Positions 13,242-62,527 of a stretch of 64,000 nucleotides of DNA are shown piece after piece. Under the pieces are notes generated by a model. It searched no databases. It was given only the letters and a program-made list of their open reading frames with translations, and had not been told where the DNA came from. Position numbers and translations under genes: made by a program. How positions within the stretch are numbered: the stretch's first letter is position 1; each line of letters begins with the position of its first letter. Source of the stretch: Parvibaculum sp. (lineage in GTDB: Bacteria > Pseudomonadota > Alphaproteobacteria > Parvibaculales > Parvibaculaceae); contig NZ_JAHBYN010000001.1 of NCBI RefSeq assembly GCF_019635935.1, positions 1,302,001 to 1,366,000 of the forward strand, written 5' to 3'.

Positions 13242-14321
13242 ATGGAATCCGTCTATTACGTCCTCACCTATGCCTGCCACCGCAAATGCCGGCATTGCTA
13301 CGACACCCGCTTCCGCCCCTATGTGCGCGACGGGTTGAAAGCGGTCGTCGGCGAAGGTGTCGACAATTACCGCCGCATCGTTGCCAACCTGCCCGACAGC
13401 ATGATCTATCGCGATCCCGCAAAGCCCGGCGCCGACGGTTCGCCGTCCGAACGCATCGGCCGCCTCATCCTGGCCGGCGGCGAACTGCTGATCGACCCCG
13501 TGCGCGAAACGCTGCTCTATCCGGCGCTCGACGCCATCCGCGAAAAATACGGGCCGCGCGGCGTCCGCATCAGCATGCAGACGACCGGCGACATCGTCAC
13601 CCCGCGCATGCTCGATGAGTTGCGCGAGCGCGGCGTCTGGATGATCGCCGTCGCCAGCATGGACGATTATCACGTCGGCATGGAAGGCGAGAAGCGCCTG
13701 CCCTTCATGGAAAATCTGAAAACGATGTTCGAGGCGGCGGGCTTCGGCCCGGTGCCCGATCCCGCGACCGGCCGCGACCATCTGCTGGAAGATGGTCCCT
13801 TCTACCTCTTCTTCGGCGCCCAGCCGGGGCAATGGATCGCCGAACTGTGGCCGCGCGGCCGCGCCTGGGAAAACGGTTTGTCGAAGGCGACGATGGAAAC
13901 CAATTTCTGTTCGCGCTGGTCGGGTGCGAAAAACTTTCTGAATCATGGGTACGCCGGTGCCGAAGTCGCCATCGAGCCGAACGGCGACGTCTTTCCCTGC
14001 TGTCTCAAGACAAAACTGCCGATCGGCAATCTGACCGAGGAACGCCTCGTCGACATTCTCGACAGCCTGAAAGGTCATCCGGTCTTCGAAGCACTGAATG
14101 CCGGCGACCCGCTTCACATGGGCGAGAGCCTCGGATGGAGCGCCGACGATTTTTTCACCGCCTCGCACACGACGACGCCGCAAGGTGCGCCTTACGCAAA
14201 TCTCTGCATCGGCTGCGACCGCTTCCATGAGGAGAAACTCGGACCGGTCATTCGCGACCTGCGCGAGCGGCGGTTGAGGGCCCTGAAAAATTCACCGGCA
14301 ACCGCAAACATGCGGGGATAA
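13242..14321 (+). CDS. Radical SAM protein with SPASM-like C-terminal cysteines
   Basis: This 359-residue protein has the radical-SAM cluster motif CHRKCRHC (Cys12, Cys16, Cys19) right after strand VYYVLTYA. This binds a [4Fe-4S] cluster and S-adenosylmethionine. The C-terminal part has a CC pair in GDVFPCCLKT and a further pair in LCIGCDRF, resembling the auxiliary-cluster (SPASM) domains of peptide- and quinone-modifying enzymes. No small precursor peptide gene lies beside it. It follows the dioxygenase after 91 bases. The last codons include the GGGGATAAGT sequence discussed under findings. The modification chemistry is unknown. Confidence 0.85.
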   Translation: MESVYYVLTYACHRKCRHCYDTRFRPYVRDGLKAVVGEGVDNYRRIVANLPDSMIYRDPAKPGADGSPSERIGRLILAGGELLIDPVRETLLYPALDAIREKYGPRGVRISMQTTGDIVTPRMLDELRERGVWMIAVASMDDYHVGMEGEKRLPFMENLKTMFEAAGFGPVPDPATGRDHLLEDGPFYLFFGAQPGQWIAELWPRGRAWENGLSKATMETNFCSRWSGAKNFLNHGYAGAEVAIEPNGDVFPCCLKTKLPIGNLTEERLVDILDSLKGHPVFEALNAGDPLHMGESLGWSADDFFTASHTTTPQGAPYANLCIGCDRFHEEKLGPVIRDLRERRLRALKNSPATANMRG

Positions 14322-14471: not shown

Positions 14472-14518
14472 TGTTCGTGACAGTTTTTTGACAGATCGAT
14501 GACAGAAGGGGCGTTTTC
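14472..14518 (-). repeat. 47-bp repeat copy A with three-unit Pho-type array
   Basis: Read on the minus strand, three 11-bp units each begin CTGTCA (first bases 14505, 14494, 14483). This is the direct-repeat layout of a PhoB box. With flanks, 45 of 47 bases are identical to 62481-62527. It lies between the ends of two convergent genes (radical SAM, RND permease) and points toward the radical SAM 3' end. The rest of the 247-base gap holds a GGGATAAGT copy (14439-14447) and three AGCAC repeats at 12-base steps (14391, 14403, 14415). I see no gene there. Confidence 0.7.
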
Positions 14519-14568: not shown

Positions 14569-17500
14569 TTATTCCGCCGGTGCGTGGATGTCCCGTCCGG
14601 CCTTCGCCGCGACCCTCCGCTCCTGCCAGCCGGCGAGGATCAAATAGACCGTCGGCACGACGAACAGCGTCAGAACCGTGCCGAAACTGATGCCGCCCAC
14701 AATCACCAGACCGATCGACCGCCGGCTCTCCGCGCCCGCGCCGCTCGCCAGCGCCAGCGGCATCGCACCCAGCACCATCGCCCCCGTCGTCATCAGGATC
14801 GGACGCAGCCGCAGGCCCGACGCTTCCACCACCGCTTCGTATACGGAACTGCCGCGTTCGCGAAGCTGGTTGGAGAATTCGACGATCAGAATCCCGTGCT
14901 TGCTGATCAGGCCGACAAGCGTAATCAATCCGACCTGACTGTAGATGTTGAGCGTCGTGCCCGTCAGGAACAACAGCAGCAACGCACCGGCAATCGACAG
15001 CGGCACGCTGATCAGAATGACCAGCGGATCGAGAAAACTTTCAAACTGCGCCGCAAGCACGAGATAGATGAAGATCAGCGCCAGGAAGAAAGTGATGAGA
15101 ATGGTGTTCGACGACTTGACGAATTCGCGAAGCTGCCCGTCGACATCGGTCTGCGCCGTCGCGGGCAACACCCGGAGCGCCAGCTCGTCGAGAAAATCCA
15201 ACGCCTCGCCCATCGAATATCCGGGCGCGAGGTTTGCCGAGATCGTCGCGGCGCGAAGCTGGTTGAAACGATTGAGCGCGTTGGGCGCAACCGTTTCGGT
15301 CACCGATATCAGATTGGAGAGCTGGACCATTTCGCCCTGCCCGCCGCGCACATAGATATTGCTGATATCGTTCGGCGTCCGCCGCTCGTCGTCGGCAACC
15401 TGCACGATCACATCGTATTGCTTGCCGCCTTGTTCGTAGCGCGTGACCTTTCGTCCGCCGAGCAGCGTTTCGAGCGTCCGCCCGACCGTCGACACGTCGA
15501 TGCCCGCATCGACAACCTTGTCGCGATTGACCGCGATGTCGAGTTGCGGCTTCTGCAGCTTGAGGTTGGTGTCCGGATTGACGAAGCCGGGGTTCCGGCG
15601 GATCTCGTTCATCATCAGGTTCACATACCGGTCCAGGTCTTCATACGTGCCCGATGCCTGCACCACATACTCAACCGGCAGCGAACGCCCGCTCTGTCCG
15701 AGCGACGGCGGATTGATTGCGAAAGCGAGGATGCCGGGAATGCGGCTGAGCTTCGGCTGCATTTCGTTGACGATCTCCCGCTGCGAGCGGCTGCGTTCGC
15801 TCCAGTGAATAAGGCGCGAGAACGACACGAGATCGGTGATCTGCGGAAAACCCGAAACGACGAGATAGCCGGCGACTTCGGGAATATCGATATAGACCTG
15901 CTGAATCTGCTTTGCATAGCGCGCCGAAAACTCAAGCGTCGCGCCTTGCGGCGCCTGCCCGACGACCAGCAACGTGCCGCGATCTTCAAGCGGCGCCAGC
16001 TCACGCTGCAGCAGCAGCATGAAACCGGCGCACGACACCGCGACGATCGCGGCAACCGCCACCACGGCGCGTTGCCGCGCGAGCGCCCGCCGCAGCACTT
16101 TCTTGTAGCCGGCATCGAGTTCGTCGAGCTTGTCGCCGAGCCAGCGCTGTATTCGGCCCTGGTTCGTCTCATGCCGCAAGAGCTTCGAACAGAGCATCGG
16201 CGTCAGCGTCAGCGCCACGAACCCGGACACGAAAACGGCGCCTGCCAGCGTCAGCGCGAACTCCAGAAAGAGTTTGCCCGTGCGCCCTTCCGCGAAACTG
16301 ACAGGCGCATAGACGGCAACAAGCGTCAGCGTCATGGCGATGACGGCGAAGGTGATCTCGCGCGACCCGTCGATGGCCGCCTGGAAGGGCGTCTTTCCCA
16401 TCTCGATATGACGATAGATGTTTTCGAGCATCACGATGGCGTCGTCGACGACGAGGCCGATCGCCAGCACCATCGCCAGCAGCGTCAGCGTGTTGATGCT
16501 GAAACCGAACAGCAGCATGATCGCAAAACTGGTGATCAGCGCGATCGGAATGGTGACGACGGGAATGAAGGACGCACGCACCGTTCGCAAAAAGACGAAG
16601 ATCACCAGTACGACAAGCACGATGGCTTCGAGAATTGTCTCATAGACCGAACGAATGGATTCGGCGATGAACACCGAGGTGTCGTAGCCGACAAACGAAC
16701 CCATGCCTTCCGGCAGCGTCGGCGCCAGATCGTCGAGCGTCTGGCGCACCGCCGCGGCAACCTCCAGCGGATTGGCCGTCGCCTGCTTGACGACGCCGAG
16801 CGAGATCGACGTCTCGCCGTTATAGGTCGCCGACCGCCGGACGTCGGCGGCGGCAACTTCCACCCGCGCCACCTGCGCGAGCCGGACCTGAAAACCGTCC
16901 GTCTCCTTGACGACGATGTTTTCAAACTCTTCCGGCGTTTGCAGCGCCGTCTTGGCCAGCACCGTGAATTCGCGGTCGAAACTCTCGATGCGGCCGGACG
17001 GAATTTCGGCGTTCTGTGCACGGACGGCATTCTCGACGTCCTGCACCGTGAGGTTGTAGGCGGCGAGCCGCGCCCGGTCGACCCAGATTCGCATCGAATA
17101 TTCGCGGCCACCGAAAATACTGACCTGCGCGACGCCGGGCTGGTTCTGCAATCTGTCGCTGACGATCCGATCCAGATAATCGGTGATCTCGAGCGAGTCC
17201 ATGCGATCGCTCTTGAAGGCGATATACATGATCGGCTGTGCGTCGGCCTCGACCTTGGCGATGATCGGTTCATTCACATCGTCCGGCAGCAACCCGCGCG
17301 CGCGGCCGACACGGTCGCGCACATCGCTCGCCGCGACATCCGGGTCGGTCGTCAGCGTGAAGCGCGCCGTCACCTGGCTCTCTTCCGGACGGCTCGCCGA
17401 CGACAGCACCTCGATGCCTTCGATGCCGGCCATCGAATCCTCGAGCGCCTGCGTAACTTCGCGCTCGACAACCGCCGCGCTGGCGCCGCGATAAACCGTG

Positions 17501-17643
17501 GTCACGGTGACGACCGGTTCGTCGATTTCCGGATATTCGCGCACCGACAACCGGTCGTAGGAAACGATGCCGAGCAGCATCAGGATCAGACTGACGACGG
17601 TTGCGAAAACCGGGCGGCGAATGAACAGTTCGGAAATATGCAT
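14569..17643 (-). CDS. RND efflux transporter permease (AcrB/MexF-like)
   Basis: This 1024-residue inner-membrane proton-driven efflux pump has 12 predicted helices and two large periplasmic loops. The N-terminus FIRRPVFATVVSLILMLLG is the family signature. The proton-relay aspartates lie in GLVVDDAIVMLENIYRH, and the C-terminal half repeats the pattern (GLISKHGILIVEFSNQL). It forms a tripartite pump with the adaptor gene directly upstream (11-base gap) and an outer-membrane channel that is not in this window. Substrates may be drugs, solvents or lipophilic metabolites. The second half lacks the paired Asp, as is usual. Confidence 0.95.
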   Translation of the reverse strand: MHISELFIRRPVFATVVSLILMLLGIVSYDRLSVREYPEIDEPVVTVTTVYRGASAAVVEREVTQALEDSMAGIEGIEVLSSASRPEESQVTARFTLTTDPDVAASDVRDRVGRARGLLPDDVNEPIIAKVEADAQPIMYIAFKSDRMDSLEITDYLDRIVSDRLQNQPGVAQVSIFGGREYSMRIWVDRARLAAYNLTVQDVENAVRAQNAEIPSGRIESFDREFTVLAKTALQTPEEFENIVVKETDGFQVRLAQVARVEVAAADVRRSATYNGETSISLGVVKQATANPLEVAAAVRQTLDDLAPTLPEGMGSFVGYDTSVFIAESIRSVYETILEAIVLVVLVIFVFLRTVRASFIPVVTIPIALITSFAIMLLFGFSINTLTLLAMVLAIGLVVDDAIVMLENIYRHIEMGKTPFQAAIDGSREITFAVIAMTLTLVAVYAPVSFAEGRTGKLFLEFALTLAGAVFVSGFVALTLTPMLCSKLLRHETNQGRIQRWLGDKLDELDAGYKKVLRRALARQRAVVAVAAIVAVSCAGFMLLLQRELAPLEDRGTLLVVGQAPQGATLEFSARYAKQIQQVYIDIPEVAGYLVVSGFPQITDLVSFSRLIHWSERSRSQREIVNEMQPKLSRIPGILAFAINPPSLGQSGRSLPVEYVVQASGTYEDLDRYVNLMMNEIRRNPGFVNPDTNLKLQKPQLDIAVNRDKVVDAGIDVSTVGRTLETLLGGRKVTRYEQGGKQYDVIVQVADDERRTPNDISNIYVRGGQGEMVQLSNLISVTETVAPNALNRFNQLRAATISANLAPGYSMGEALDFLDELALRVLPATAQTDVDGQLREFVKSSNTILITFFLALIFIYLVLAAQFESFLDPLVILISVPLSIAGALLLLFLTGTTLNIYSQVGLITLVGLISKHGILIVEFSNQLRERGSSVYEAVVEASGLRLRPILMTTGAMVLGAMPLALASGAGAESRRSIGLVIVGGISFGTVLTLFVVPTVYLILAGWQERRVAAKAGRDIHAPAE

Positions 17644-20751: not shown

Positions 20752-20789
20752 GACGGTTCGCGACGACCGCCGCCCGCAGCCTCCCGGAC

Positions 20790-20819
20790 AAAAAAAGGGG
20801 CCCTGGCGAACCAGGGCCC
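20790..20819 (-). terminator. Rho-independent terminator of the small RNA
   Basis: Read on the minus strand, GGGCCCTGG pairs with CCAGGGCCC (20798-20819) around a 4-base loop. A short C and then seven Ts (20790-20796) follow. This is a textbook terminator for leftward transcription; the plus strand lacks a T-run. Confidence 0.85.
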
Positions 20820-20884
20820 AAGTTTAGGGAGGAAACGCCCAGGAAGGGCTGCGACAGCGGGAGAAACCTCAACCGATGCCGCAA
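20790..20884 (-). ncRNA. Small RNA of the alpha-r8 (suhB/MmgR) type
   Basis: On the minus strand the 407-base gap contains a compact sRNA-like unit. A CTTGAT-N17-TCATCT promoter at 20891-20919 is followed by about 95 bases. These hold a GGTTTCTCCC segment, the sequence GTTTCCTCCCTAAACTT and a perfect terminator. The UUUCCUCCCU box just before the terminator is the hallmark I recall for the alphaproteobacterial alpha-r8 family (suhB/MmgR), trans-acting RNAs that bind Hfq. MmgR of Sinorhizobium limits polyhydroxybutyrate storage. The 5' end is estimated from the promoter. No coding frame explains the conserved parts. Confidence 0.68.
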
Positions 20885-22134: not shown

Positions 22135-23724
22135 ATGGGCGCGTTCGGCGATGCGATGAAGAGTCTGGCGGACCTTCTGAACGATTCCGTCATCTGGCAG
22201 ATCGTCGACATCATGTCGGCGCTTTTCATCGTCGGCATCGGCTGCGGCGTCATTGCCATCGCCGTCCTCTTCATCATCGACAGCACCCAGACAAAGCACG
22301 CGGTGCGCCGCAACTATCCGGTGATCGGCCGCTTCCGCTATCTCTTCGAAACGCTCGGCGAATATTTCCGGCAGTATTTCTTTGCGATGGATCGCGAAGA
22401 GCTGCCCTTCAACCGCGCCCAGCGTGCCTGGGTCTATCGCGCGGCAAAGGGCGTCGACACGACGGTCGCCTTCGGCTCGACGCGCGACCTCCGCCCCGCC
22501 GGCACCGTCACTTTCGCCAACTGCCCTTTCCCGACGCTCGACCGCAATGCCGCCGACACCGCGTTGATCGAAGTCGGGCCCTATGCGCGCAAGCCCTTCC
22601 GTACCTCTTCGATCTACAACATTTCCGGCATGAGCTACGGCGCGATTTCAAAACCCGCCGTGCTGGCGCTGTCGAAAGGCGCGCGCATGGCCGGCATCTG
22701 GCTCAACACCGGCGAAGGCGGCCTATCGCCCTTCCATCTCGAAGGCGGCGCCGACATCGTCTTCCAGATCGGCACCGCGAAATACGGTTGTCGCGACGAC
22801 GATGGTGGCTTGTCGGACGAGAAACTTGCGGCGCTCGCCGCACACGAACAGATCCGCATGTTCGAAATCAAGCTGAGCCAGGGCGCCAAGCCCGGCAAGG
22901 GCGGCATCCTGCCCGGCTCGAAGGTGACGCCGGAAATCGCCGCCATTCGCGGCATTCCCGCCGGTCACGATTCGATCAGCCCCAATCGCCACCCCGAAAT
23001 CGACAGCATCGGCGAGCTGCTCGACTTCGTTTCTCACGTGCGTGAGGTGACGGGCAAGCCGACCGGATTCAAGCTGGTGCTCGGCGCCTATGACTGGCTC
23101 GACGACCTCTGCGCCGAGATCAACCGCCGCGGCATCGAGAACGCACCCGACTTCATTTCGCTCGACAGCGCCGACGGCGGCACGGGCGCGGCGCCGATGC
23201 CGCTGATCGATTATGTCGGCCTGCCGATCTGGGAAAGCCTGCCGGTACTTTGCGACACGCTGGAGCGCCACAAGCTGAAATCGCGCATCCGCGTGACGGC
23301 GAGCGGCAAGCTGATCACACCGGCCGAAGTCGCATGGGCGCTCTGCGTCGGCGCCGATTTCGTCTGCTCGGCGCGCGGCTTCATGTTCTCGCTCGGTTGT
23401 ATCCAGGCGCTCCAGTGCAACAAGAACACCTGCCCGACCGGCATCACGACGCACAACAAACGCCTGCAGCGCGGTCTCGACGTCACCGACAAGGGCGAAC
23501 GCGTGCGCCGCTATGCGGAGCGCGTGACGCAGGAAGTCTGCGTGATTGCGCATTCCTGCGGCGTCACCGAACCGCGCCGCCTCAACCGCGAACATGCACG
23601 CATCATGGGACCGGACGGCGTGTCGGTATCGCTCAAGGACTATTATGGCCGCTGGGCCGACACGGCCGCCCTCCCCTCGCGCAACGGCATCGGCCGCCCG
23701 CGCTTCGGCGCCGACGCCGCCTAG
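22135..23724 (+). CDS. Membrane-anchored glutamate synthase-like FMN enzyme
   Basis: This 529-residue protein consists of the central/FMN domain of glutamate synthase without the amidotransferase half. An N-terminal membrane helix (IMSALFIVGIGCGVIAIAVL) is followed by RTSSIYNISGMSYGAIS and GGLSPFHLEGGADIVFQIG. Next come KPGKGGILPGSKV and DSADGGTGAAPMPLIDYVG (FMN site), and a cysteine cluster CIQALQCNKNTCPTG (probable [3Fe-4S]). Family members are widespread and mostly uncharacterised; an FMN/Fe-S oxidoreductase role is likely. It converges on the lipid kinase gene with a 4-base overlap. Confidence 0.86.
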   Translation: MGAFGDAMKSLADLLNDSVIWQIVDIMSALFIVGIGCGVIAIAVLFIIDSTQTKHAVRRNYPVIGRFRYLFETLGEYFRQYFFAMDREELPFNRAQRAWVYRAAKGVDTTVAFGSTRDLRPAGTVTFANCPFPTLDRNAADTALIEVGPYARKPFRTSSIYNISGMSYGAISKPAVLALSKGARMAGIWLNTGEGGLSPFHLEGGADIVFQIGTAKYGCRDDDGGLSDEKLAALAAHEQIRMFEIKLSQGAKPGKGGILPGSKVTPEIAAIRGIPAGHDSISPNRHPEIDSIGELLDFVSHVREVTGKPTGFKLVLGAYDWLDDLCAEINRRGIENAPDFISLDSADGGTGAAPMPLIDYVGLPIWESLPVLCDTLERHKLKSRIRVTASGKLITPAEVAWALCVGADFVCSARGFMFSLGCIQALQCNKNTCPTGITTHNKRLQRGLDVTDKGERVRRYAERVTQEVCVIAHSCGVTEPRRLNREHARIMGPDGVSVSLKDYYGRWADTAALPSRNGIGRPRFGADAA

Positions 23725-24602
23725 GCCGGAACCACCAGCCGCAAAAACTGCGTGCCCTGCTCGATCGATTGCGGCAGGTGGCCGCGCGCGTCGCCGTCGA
23801 CTTCAACCTCAAGGCCCGCCGGGTTCGTCACATCGACACGCCGAACCGGCAACACTTCGACGCTGCGCAGCTTCCCGACACGGCCAAGCGCCAGCGCGAC
23901 GAGAAAGCGGACAAAGCCGAAGCGGCTTGCGTCATGCAGCAGAAAAAGCGTCAGGCCCGGCTGCGTGATGTTCTGGTCGGGTGCGAGAATGAACGGACCC
24001 GCATAGTTGCGCGCATTGGTGACGATCGCCCAGGCGGCGCGTTTCTCGCGCCCGTCGGCGACGAGCCGGATGTCGCGGCCGGGGCCCGCCGCCCATGCCT
24101 TGAGGCCGGACCAGACGAAGGCGCCCTTGCCCCACAGGCGTTTCAGGCGCGGGTCGATGCCGTGAACCACGACGCCATCGAAACCGATACCCGCCATCAG
24201 CAGGAAAATCTCGCCATCGACCAGCCCCGTGCCGATGAGCTCCGCCGGACCGCCAAGCAGCATCGATGAAATCTCCTCCGCGCGCGGACGAAGGCCGATC
24301 TCGACGGCCAGCACATTCGCCGTGCCGAGCGGCAGAATGCCGAGCGGCACGCCCTGCCCCAGAAGACCGCGCGCCACCTCGTTGATGGTGCCGTCGCCGC
24401 CGGCCGCGACGATCACATCCGCTTCGCCGCGCCGCGCCGCCGCGCGCGCAAGCGCCGTCGCATGCCCGGCCGCTTGCGTCAGCTCCACCGTGACGTCCGA
24501 ACCGCTGGCGCGAAGCCGCTCAACAACGCGATCGAGCAAGGTGCGATTGCGACGTCCGGCGGCCGGATTGACGATAATGTGGAAGTTGCGGCGGAGGGCC
24601 AA
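23721..24602 (-). CDS. Diacylglycerol kinase family lipid kinase
   Basis: This 293-residue kinase has the DAGK catalytic domain: an N-terminal NPAAGRRNR motif, the nucleotide-binding GGDGTINEVARGLLG near residue 65, and PLGTANVLAVEIGL. It phosphorylates diacylglycerol or a related lipid to phosphatidate. The start is TTG 24602: an in-frame stop lies seven codons upstream and no ATG fits. It is divergent from the plcP-like gene, with a Pho-type array between them. In that setting it could recycle diacylglycerol released by the phospholipase; this is an inference. Confidence 0.87.
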   Translation of the reverse strand: MALRRNFHIIVNPAAGRRNRTLLDRVVERLRASGSDVTVELTQAAGHATALARAAARRGEADVIVAAGGDGTINEVARGLLGQGVPLGILPLGTANVLAVEIGLRPRAEEISSMLLGGPAELIGTGLVDGEIFLLMAGIGFDGVVVHGIDPRLKRLWGKGAFVWSGLKAWAAGPGRDIRLVADGREKRAAWAIVTNARNYAGPFILAPDQNITQPGLTLFLLHDASRFGFVRFLVALALGRVGKLRSVEVLPVRRVDVTNPAGLEVEVDGDARGHLPQSIEQGTQFLRLVVPA

Positions 24603-24623
24603 ATCGCGGTTCCCGGGGGGTCA

Positions 24624-24656
24624 CTGTCACAAAACTGTCAAAAAACTGTCACAAAT
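24624..24656 (+). promoter_or_regulatory. Pho box (PhoB operator), three 11-bp units
   Basis: Three adjacent 11-bp units begin at 24624, 24635 and 24646, each with CTGTCA followed by an A-rich tail. This is the layout of PhoB-binding sites (CTGTCAT plus four bases, directly repeated). It reads rightward, 145 bases ahead of the plcP-like gene, which in relatives is switched on by phosphate starvation. CATATT at 24674-24679 is a possible -10, though its spacing from the box is longer than in Escherichia coli. PhoB control is inferred from the motif. Confidence 0.72.
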
Positions 24657-24801
24657 CCTTGTTGCGGCGCACCCATATTCGCGGCGAACGGAACCGGACG
24701 ATTCGCTTATAGCCAGATTGATCGGCTCAAGCGAGACGGCCAGCCGGGGATAAGTAAAACGACCGACGCGAGATGAGTACAACAAGGCGATCGACGCGAA
24801 T

Positions 24802-25767
24802 ATGACAGTGATCGAAACGGGCTTGCCGAGACGGATGGACGAAGCGGCGACCGCGCCGCCCCCGGTCTCGTCAAAAAAATCCCGCAAGGAAGCGGCCCGC
24901 GCGAAAGCAAGGCGAAACGGGCTCGACGAAAGATTGCTGGGGCCGCGCCCCAAACACCGCAAACAGCACCGCACGCTTTTCCTTTCCGACATTCATCTGG
25001 GTACGCCGGGTTGCAAGGCCGAGCTGCTGCTCGACTTCCTGCGCCACAACGACGCCGAGACTTTCTATCTGGTCGGCGACATCGTCGATGGCTGGCGCAT
25101 CAAACGCTCCTGGTACTGGAACGCCGCACACAATGCGGTGGTGCAGGAATTCCTGCGCAAGGCGCGCAAGGGCGCGACGATCATCTATGTGCCCGGCAAT
25201 CACGACGAGGCGCTGCGCGACTATACCGGCCTCAATTTCGGCGGCATCGACGTGATCGGCGAAGCGATCCACGAAACGGCCGACGGACGCCGCTTCTTGG
25301 TAATCCATGGCGACCAGTTCGACAGCGTGGTCAAATATGCGAAATGGCTGGCCCATCTCGGCGACCGCGCCTATGGGCTGGCGCTGACGCTGAACAACTG
25401 GCTGCACGAGGTGCGGCGCTTCTTCGGCTTCTCCTACTGGTCGCTCTCGTCCTACCTGAAGAACCGGGTCAAGAACGCGGTCGAATATATTTCGAGCTAC
25501 GAACAGGCGGTCGCCCGCGAAGCGCGCGAACGCGGCGTCGACGGCGTGATCTGCGGTCACATTCACCATGCCGAAATGCGCGACATGGACGGCGTGCTCT
25601 ACTGCAACGACGGCGACTGGGTCGAAAGCTGCACGGCGCTGTCGGAAGACGAGCACGGCGCGATGTCGTTGATTGTCTGGCAGAAATTCTCCTGGGAAAC
25701 CGAGCTCGCCAACGGCGAGACGGAACCCCATGACGAAGACGCCGAACCCGTGTTGAGCGCCGCCTGA
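24802..25767 (+). CDS. plcP: PlcP-like metallophosphoesterase (phospholipase C), UDP-diacylglucosamine hydrolase family
   Basis: This 321-residue calcineurin-type phosphoesterase has all metal-binding motifs: FLSDIHLG (Asp63, His65), GDIVDGW (Asp93), GNHDE (Asn133, His134), HGDQFD (His169) and GHIHH (His253, His255). A basic N-terminal tail of about 55 residues precedes the domain. Such proteins are often annotated as UDP-2,3-diacylglucosamine hydrolase (LpxH). In Sinorhizobium and marine alphaproteobacteria the version paired with a glycosyltransferase is PlcP, which cuts phosphatidylcholine or phosphatidylethanolamine to diacylglycerol under phosphate limitation. The Pho box upstream and the overlapping glycosyltransferase gene favour PlcP here. 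Activity is inferred. Confidence 0.82.
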   Translation: MTVIETGLPRRMDEAATAPPPVSSKKSRKEAARAKARRNGLDERLLGPRPKHRKQHRTLFLSDIHLGTPGCKAELLLDFLRHNDAETFYLVGDIVDGWRIKRSWYWNAAHNAVVQEFLRKARKGATIIYVPGNHDEALRDYTGLNFGGIDVIGEAIHETADGRRFLVIHGDQFDSVVKYAKWLAHLGDRAYGLALTLNNWLHEVRRFFGFSYWSLSSYLKNRVKNAVEYISSYEQAVAREARERGVDGVICGHIHHAEMRDMDGVLYCNDGDWVESCTALSEDEHGAMSLIVWQKFSWETELANGETEPHDEDAEPVLSAA

Positions 25768-26972
25768 TGCCCCACAGCACAACGCTCGCATCCCTCGCCC
25801 CGCTCGCGCCGCGAAGGAAGCATCGCATCGCGAGGCTTCTGAGCCGCTTTCGCGGCGGCCCGCTGCCGAAGGATGTCGGCCGCTTTTCGGAACCCCTGCG
25901 CATCGTCATCGTTTCGGATGCCGCGCCGCCGCAGGTGAACGGCGTCGTGCGCACGCTGCAGCAACTGACGCAGCATCTCGAAGGCATGGGCCATGAGGTG
26001 ACTTTCGTCACGCCCGACATGTTCGCCACCGTGCCGCTGCCGACCTACAAGGAGATCCGCCTCGCGCTCTTTCCGATGCGCAAGATCGCGCGGATCATCC
26101 GTCAGGCGAACCCGAACGCCATCCATATCGCGACCGAAGGCCCGCTCGGCCTTGCGGCGCGGCGCTTCTGCTTGCGCAAGGGGATCCCCTTCTCGACCTC
26201 GTTCCACACGCGCTTCGCCGAATATCTGAACGCGCGCACCGGCATTCCGCTTTCATGGGGTTACGCGTTCCTCCGCCGCTTCCATGCGAAATCGGCGAGC
26301 CTGATGGTGGCGACGCCGTCGCTGCAGGCGGAACTGAAGGAACGCGGCTTCGGCACGCCGTCGATCTGGTCGCGCGGGGTCGATGTCGAACGCTACCGGC
26401 CCAAGCCCGACATGCAGGACGCACACCCGATGGGCCTTGCGCGGCCGGTCTGGCTGAATGTCGGCCGCATCGCGGTCGAAAAGAACCTCGAGGCCTTTCT
26501 CGATCTCGACCTGCCGGGCACCAAGATGGTGGTCGGCGAAGGCCCGCGCCTCGAACATTTGAAGAAGCGCTATCCGGATGCGCATTTCACCGGCCCGCTT
26601 TTCGGCGAGGAACTGGCCGACGCCTATGCAGCAGCCGATGTGTTCGTCTTCCCGAGCAGGACCGACACGTTCGGCCTGGTGCTGATCGAGGCGATGGCGG
26701 CCGGAACGCCTGTTGCCGGCTACCCGGTGCAGGGCCCGGCCGATGTGCTGGCCTTCACACCCGACGGCGCCAAGGCCGGCATTGTCGACGCGGACCTGAA
26801 AACCGCCTGCATGAAGGCGCTGCGCCTCAACCGCGACGACGCGCGCGCCTATGCGATGAACTTCTCCTGGGACGCCTGCGCCAAGCAGTTCATCTCGAAC
26901 CTCGCGCTGGAGGAGATGCCGGGCGCGGAAGAAACGGTCGAGATGCGCGCCGCGATGGAAGTGGTGGGCTGA
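25767..26972 (+). CDS. agt: GT4 glycosyltransferase, Agt-like (diacylglycerol glycosyltransferase)
   Basis: This 401-residue glycosyltransferase has the GT-B fold. The N-terminal acceptor domain has SDAAPPQVNGVVRTLQ and the motif HIATEGPLGLAARRF. The donor-binding domain has NVGRIAVEKNLEAF and the GT4 signature FPSRTDTFGLVLIEAMAAG near residue 295. Its ATG overlaps the plcP stop by one base, so the two are coupled. In related bacteria this partner adds glucose, galactose or glucuronate to diacylglycerol, replacing phospholipids. The sugar cannot be read from sequence. Confidence 0.82.
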   Translation: MPHSTTLASLAPLAPRRKHRIARLLSRFRGGPLPKDVGRFSEPLRIVIVSDAAPPQVNGVVRTLQQLTQHLEGMGHEVTFVTPDMFATVPLPTYKEIRLALFPMRKIARIIRQANPNAIHIATEGPLGLAARRFCLRKGIPFSTSFHTRFAEYLNARTGIPLSWGYAFLRRFHAKSASLMVATPSLQAELKERGFGTPSIWSRGVDVERYRPKPDMQDAHPMGLARPVWLNVGRIAVEKNLEAFLDLDLPGTKMVVGEGPRLEHLKKRYPDAHFTGPLFGEELADAYAAADVFVFPSRTDTFGLVLIEAMAAGTPVAGYPVQGPADVLAFTPDGAKAGIVDADLKTACMKALRLNRDDARAYAMNFSWDACAKQFISNLALEEMPGAEETVEMRAAMEVVG

Positions 26973-62480: not shown

Positions 62481-62527
62481 GAAAACGGGCCTTCTGTCAT
62501 CGATCTGTCAAAAAACTGTCACGAACA
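62481..62527 (+). repeat. 47-bp repeat copy B with three-unit Pho-type array
   Basis: Three 11-bp units with CTGTCA start at 62494, 62505 and 62516. With the flanks, 45 of 47 bases match copy A on the other strand at 14472-14518. It reads rightward, into the 3' end of the leftward VWA gene, so no gene lies correctly downstream. The 338-base gap 62274-62611 otherwise holds GGGGATAAGT (62456-62465) and an ACGTCCCG hairpin (62298-62316) in the SGNH leader. Near its right end is a GCGGGGA/TCCCCGC inverted repeat (about 62571-62595). Confidence 0.7.

Follow-up and report, generated by a model that had tools for sequence, protein, structure and literature searches.

The stretch of DNA that was analysed (the window; 64,000 nucleotides, G000:C1:1302001-1366000, of the 3.72 Mb Parvibaculum genome G000) carries plcP and agt behind an array of 11-bp repeats, and a lipid kinase gene diverging from the same gap. 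With a probability of roughly 0.8, these genes form a PlcP-Agt lipid-remodelling module under PhoB control, in which the divergent kinase would recycle diacylglycerol and PhoB would hinder the kinase. This explanation rests on sequence membership, promoter conservation and gene pairing, from which we infer the activities, the regulation and the direction of kinase control. The plcP-agt pair itself belongs to the known PlcP-Agt pathway and is unremarkable; the partnership of the kinase with plcP is the new part, and this link is stronger than an earlier note on this DNA had it.

The kinase gene (23721..24602, reverse strand) is of the YegS/DgkB type and starts with TTG, 21 bp from the array. 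The array consists of three predicted PhoB half-site units of 11 bp (24624..24656, forward strand; CTGTCACAAAA, CTGTCAAAAAA and CTGTCACAAAT), with exact CTGTCA copies at 24624, 24635 and 24646. It is followed by a degenerate fourth unit, CCTTGTTGCGG (24657..24667, forward strand), and, 6 bp further on, by the putative -10 element CATATT (24674..24679, forward strand). The plcP gene (24802..25767, forward strand), encoding a calcineurin-like, putative intracellular phospholipase C, ends in TGATG and shares one base (25767) with the ATG of agt (25767..26972, forward strand), which encodes a putative GT4 diacylglycerol glycosyltransferase. The array, the overlap and the divergent orientation of the kinase had all been described in the earlier note and were found as stated there. 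Pfam searches identified DAGK_cat (8.9e-27) and YegS_C in the kinase, Metallophos (2e-13) in the plcP product and Glyco_transf_4 (6e-24) in the agt product. Elsewhere in the window, Rfam matched a suhB/mmgR small RNA at 20783-20856 on the reverse strand (78.5 bits).

The earlier note had read the phosphoesterase as PlcP-like and stated that a gene tree placing it within true LpxH would speak against its reading. In a tree of 27 rows (19 PlcP-type and 8 LpxH proteins), the window protein was placed in the PlcP clade, outside LpxH, with 100/100 support; the PlcP rows were gathered by similarity and include relatives of characterised types (Methylocystis) in place of the characterised proteins. 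The window protein contains the metallophosphoesterase motifs with GNHD, here as GNHDE. Since the LpxH frames of the Betaproteobacteria were located by GNRDF, this motif tests membership independently only in the case of E. coli LpxH. In the Betaproteobacteria, LpxH scored 209-243 bits against the NCBIfam LpxH model and a second gene, taken to be of the PlcP type, scored 30-53 bits. The window protein reached 40 bits with this model. A homolog of LpxI was identified in the same genome (E 3e-40) and no match to LpxH was obtained there at E 1e-3; lipid A synthesis should therefore be independent of the window phosphoesterase gene. An LpxH-type lipid A enzyme, for which the weak HMM score would speak, has next to no likelihood left, as this score is far under the cut-off of 190 bits, the motif is GNHDE and not GNRDF, the clade is separate from LpxH among the sampled sequences, and LpxI is found in the genome. 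LpxH membership was ruled out on the tree, the motif and LpxI, and the assignment to PlcP, a predicted phospholipase C acting on phospholipids under phosphate limitation, is supported.

The Agt clade of GT4 is described by GRVAXEKN, FPSXTDTFG and a His-Asp dyad (PMC8231724). The window glycosyltransferase, called Agt-like in the earlier note, matches these signatures, with GRIAVEKN (V to I), FPSRTDTFG, in which Asp replaces the usual Glu, and the catalytic His in FHT. The gene that follows plcP in Labrenzia, Methylocystis, Azospirillum and Mf 1.05b.01 encodes a protein 50-60% identical to it, and in 70 of 80 named loci plcP is followed by agt. Both PlcP and Agt of the window were aligned with relatives of characterised proteins rather than with the named characterised proteins. 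These similarities support a putative glucosyl- or glucuronosyl-diacylglycerol-forming enzyme of the Agt clade. The PlcP-Agt pathway and its Pho boxes are already known (PMC4796936, PMC8528852, PMC9239053). In Methylosinus trichosporium OB3b and other type II methanotrophs (PMC9239053), plcP is located directly upstream of agt, as in the window. The Methylocystis relatives are 62% (PlcP) and 51% (Agt) identical to the window proteins; however, the Methylocystis loci L175 and L183 showed no divergent kinase next to plcP. The PlcP-Agt1 pair of Pseudomonas aeruginosa (PA3219-PA3218; PMC8528852) likewise forms an operon behind a Pho box, but the accessible part of that report does not mention a kinase neighbour. 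In the type 2 PlcP clusters of SAR11 and Roseobacter (PMC4796936), agt adjoins plcP and putative Pho boxes are present, as in the window, whereas the word kinase is absent from the main text. A kinase neighbour of plcP is not discussed in those openly accessible papers on plcP that were searched.

Of 80 sampled plcP-containing alphaproteobacterial genomes from many families, 38 have the kinase as the divergent neighbour of plcP. The gaps have a median of 242 bp; 37 of them measure 136-618 bp and one measures 2,035 bp. Among the 80 named loci, 25 have the kinase beside plcP in divergent orientation, including those of Azospirillum brasilense, Novispirillum itersonii and Pacificispira. Counting against the proposed module, in genus g2 (G027, G031) plcP is retained but no kinase was found at E 1e-30, and the kinase is missing from the Methylocystis loci. 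Of the kinase-box-plcP order that the earlier note proposed to look for in relatives, the divergent gene pair is widely kept, but the orientation of the box varies in distant relatives.

The kinase contains the DAGK_cat and YegS_C domains with GGDGT at residue 68, and its best solved relatives are S. aureus DgkB 2qv7 and 4wer (E 2e-18). The superfamily also includes sphingosine kinases and other lipid kinases. Since the protein scores under the curated cut-offs of all named NCBIfam models (DgkB, YegS, MamU and others), we infer its substrate from relatedness and neighbourhood. Most likely it phosphorylates diacylglycerol to phosphatidate and would thereby return a surplus to phospholipid synthesis. 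An unlikely but serious alternative is that it acts on another lipid (a sphingoid base, ceramide, undecaprenol or phosphatidylglycerol) and that its pairing with plcP serves another membrane-remodelling step. The missed cut-offs are consistent with this, as is a weak match to sphingosine kinase. On the other hand, the best solved relatives are DgkB-type diacylglycerol kinases, the neighbouring gene product is predicted to make diacylglycerol, and in relatives so would an adjoining EptA-type phosphoethanolamine transferase (by eye).

This transferase belongs to a cassette in other genus members. In about 12 of them, the coordinates place the kinase ∼4.9-5 kb from plcP. By-eye reading of seven members (L130-L136) identified a two-component system (response regulator and histidine kinase) and a large membrane protein in between, and a PAP2-like gene was called in L130, L131, L133 and L136. 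The large membrane protein appears by eye to be an EptA-type phosphoethanolamine transferase. EptA enzymes release diacylglycerol from phosphatidylethanolamine, and therefore a diacylglycerol kinase beside an EptA-like gene and plcP would make sense. Linkages of mcr with pap2 or dgkA have been described (PMC7559476). As in the mcr/eptA-pap2 and mcr-dgkA linkages, genes for a phosphoethanolamine transferase, a PAP2 phosphatase and a lipid kinase adjoin in the cassette of the relatives; unlike those linkages, this cassette is chromosomal and separates the kinase from plcP; the window genome lacks it. In L130 and L131, a Pho-like array is present both beside the kinase and beside plcP. G013 has no cassette and two arrays in the gap (one from the caller, one by eye), and the cassette is also missing from G000 and the closely related G022, which have a single array. 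A deletion in which the two arrays recombined with each other could account for this pattern.

The Pho control of plcP-agt claimed in the earlier note has to be judged on more than the motif, which on its own is weak given ∼80 similar arrays genome-wide; the promoter geometry, in contrast, is conserved and common with pstS. Eight genus members keep the exact spacing from the three half-sites through a fourth unit of the CCTTG type (GCTTG in G025) and a 6-bp interval to the -10 element, which is CATATT in G000, G022, G012, G017, G010, G024 and G025 and CATAGT in G013. In the window genome, the layout of the pstS promoter matches that of the plcP promoter, with four units and, 6 bp after them, the -10-like TAGCGT. 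A pst-phoU-phoB cluster, in which PstC was identified by HMM and the remaining genes by eye from sequence, begins 138 bp downstream of this site. A two-unit array also lies in promoter direction at most 135 bp ahead of a porin-like gene of this genome. A sigma-70 scan of the kinase-plcP gap found nothing. The tandem 11-bp half-sites, their fixed distance to the -10 element, their conservation and the parallel with pstS fit a PhoB-controlled promoter. Because of this geometry, the pstS parallel and the lack of such a -10 element at the dispersed arrays, the plcP site is likely a real Pho promoter. It is very improbable that the plcP array is one more dispersed CTGTCA copy without a regulatory role for plcP. 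The genome contains 138 exact two-unit matches, most of them away from promoters, and units 2-3 of the plcP array fit the dispersed consensus. However, the first unit and the downstream sequence differ from that consensus, the fixed -10 element does not occur beyond control level at the dispersed copies, and the site is kept in position in G016 and G025, which have no exact dispersed arrays.

The dispersed arrays were apparent in the window itself, where the three-unit pattern (at most 3 mismatches) has three matches compared to 0.03 expected from shuffles. The two others, at 14478-14505 (reverse strand) and 62494-62521 (forward strand), are perfect three-unit arrays that both contain CTTCTGTCATCGATCTGTCAAAAAACTGTCACGAACA; one is located between convergent genes and the other behind the 3' end of a gene, and neither is ahead of a Pho-type gene. 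About 80 separate arrays of this lineage-specific dispersed family are present in the genome (counted among the matches listed and extrapolated to the rest), and relatives have 0 to 153 exact two-unit matches. Among 40 AAAAA-type arrays examined, 38 are intergenic; 14 have convergent neighbouring genes and no more than 5 have divergent ones. At the dispersed arrays, -10 elements at the offset of the plcP site were not above those at control positions. The reading of all CTGTCA arrays as Pho promoters was rejected, since most follow stop codons or lie between convergent genes, without a -10 element. Between the genes 13242-14321 and 14569-17643, an array-bearing stretch of ∼210 bp is present in G000, G012, G017 and G022; in G008, the two genes are ∼42 bp apart, and in G014 and G019 the matched genes abut or overlap. 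From this presence and absence it follows that the array there arrived as part of an insertion.

TTRTCCC words are phased at ∼11.25 bp with the arrays and are 61-fold enriched within 200 bp (40 arrays, L061-L100). Both TTRTCCC and GGGGATAA words occur downstream of the arrays at 11-bp-phased distances, with a Rayleigh z of ∼34 for TTRTCCC. The arrays point to the presumed origin in 38 of 50 cases (binomial p 3e-4), this origin being placed only by parAB-like genes read by eye (C1:1999772-2001847). A link to known RNAs or viral contigs was dropped: Rfam identified no known RNA at the window arrays, and viral contigs gave 0 matches to the dispersed arrays. Among individual copies, a three-unit array is found inside a predicted 537-aa frame, by eye a MobA-type nucleotidyltransferase (L127:2280-2307; G000:C1:268779-268806), and a perfect five-unit array on the reverse strand (G000:C1:345614-345663, L111) lies between co-oriented era-like and rnc-like genes, judged by eye from their N-termini. 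It is a speculative and rather improbable idea that a lineage within Parvibaculum spread an inserted intergenic element with perfect PhoB-type arrays to ∼80 places, mostly towards the presumed origin, with possible titration or genome-wide use of PhoB; in that case many copies would be decoys and few Pho boxes, the plcP promoter among them, would be functional. With so many scattered look-alikes, a Pho regulon predicted from motif scans would be strongly inflated in this lineage.

In the proposed PlcP-Agt module, scarce phosphate would lead to binding of PhoB to the 11-bp half-sites, which would drive plcP-agt from the -10 element at 24674. PlcP would cut phospholipids to diacylglycerol and a phospho-headgroup, and Agt would glycosylate the diacylglycerol to a phosphate-free glycolipid. 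The kinase would convert the surplus of diacylglycerol to phosphatidate, and the reversible switch that the earlier note suggested is plausible. As the array is so close to the kinase TTG, points away from it and covers its upstream region, PhoB bound to the shared array in G000 should hinder the kinase and not activate it. In G010, G012 and G013, TTGACC-N17-GCTAA(T/G) was observed on the kinase strand, and the kinase-proximal array lies between this possible promoter and the start codon (by eye). In the distant loci L159, L177 and L219, the best Pho-like box is oriented towards the kinase, so that control of the kinase is not uniform. The prediction that phosphate limitation represses the kinase is therefore restricted to the window lineage, and the differing orientation led us to discard the simple rule by which the Pho box would serve plcP in every case and never the kinase. 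The PhoB array common to the kinase and plcP makes control of the kinase directly testable, and the finding that roughly one in two sampled plcP-carrying alphaproteobacteria keep the kinase divergently next to plcP suggests that diacylglycerol handling is a standing part of PlcP-Agt remodelling.
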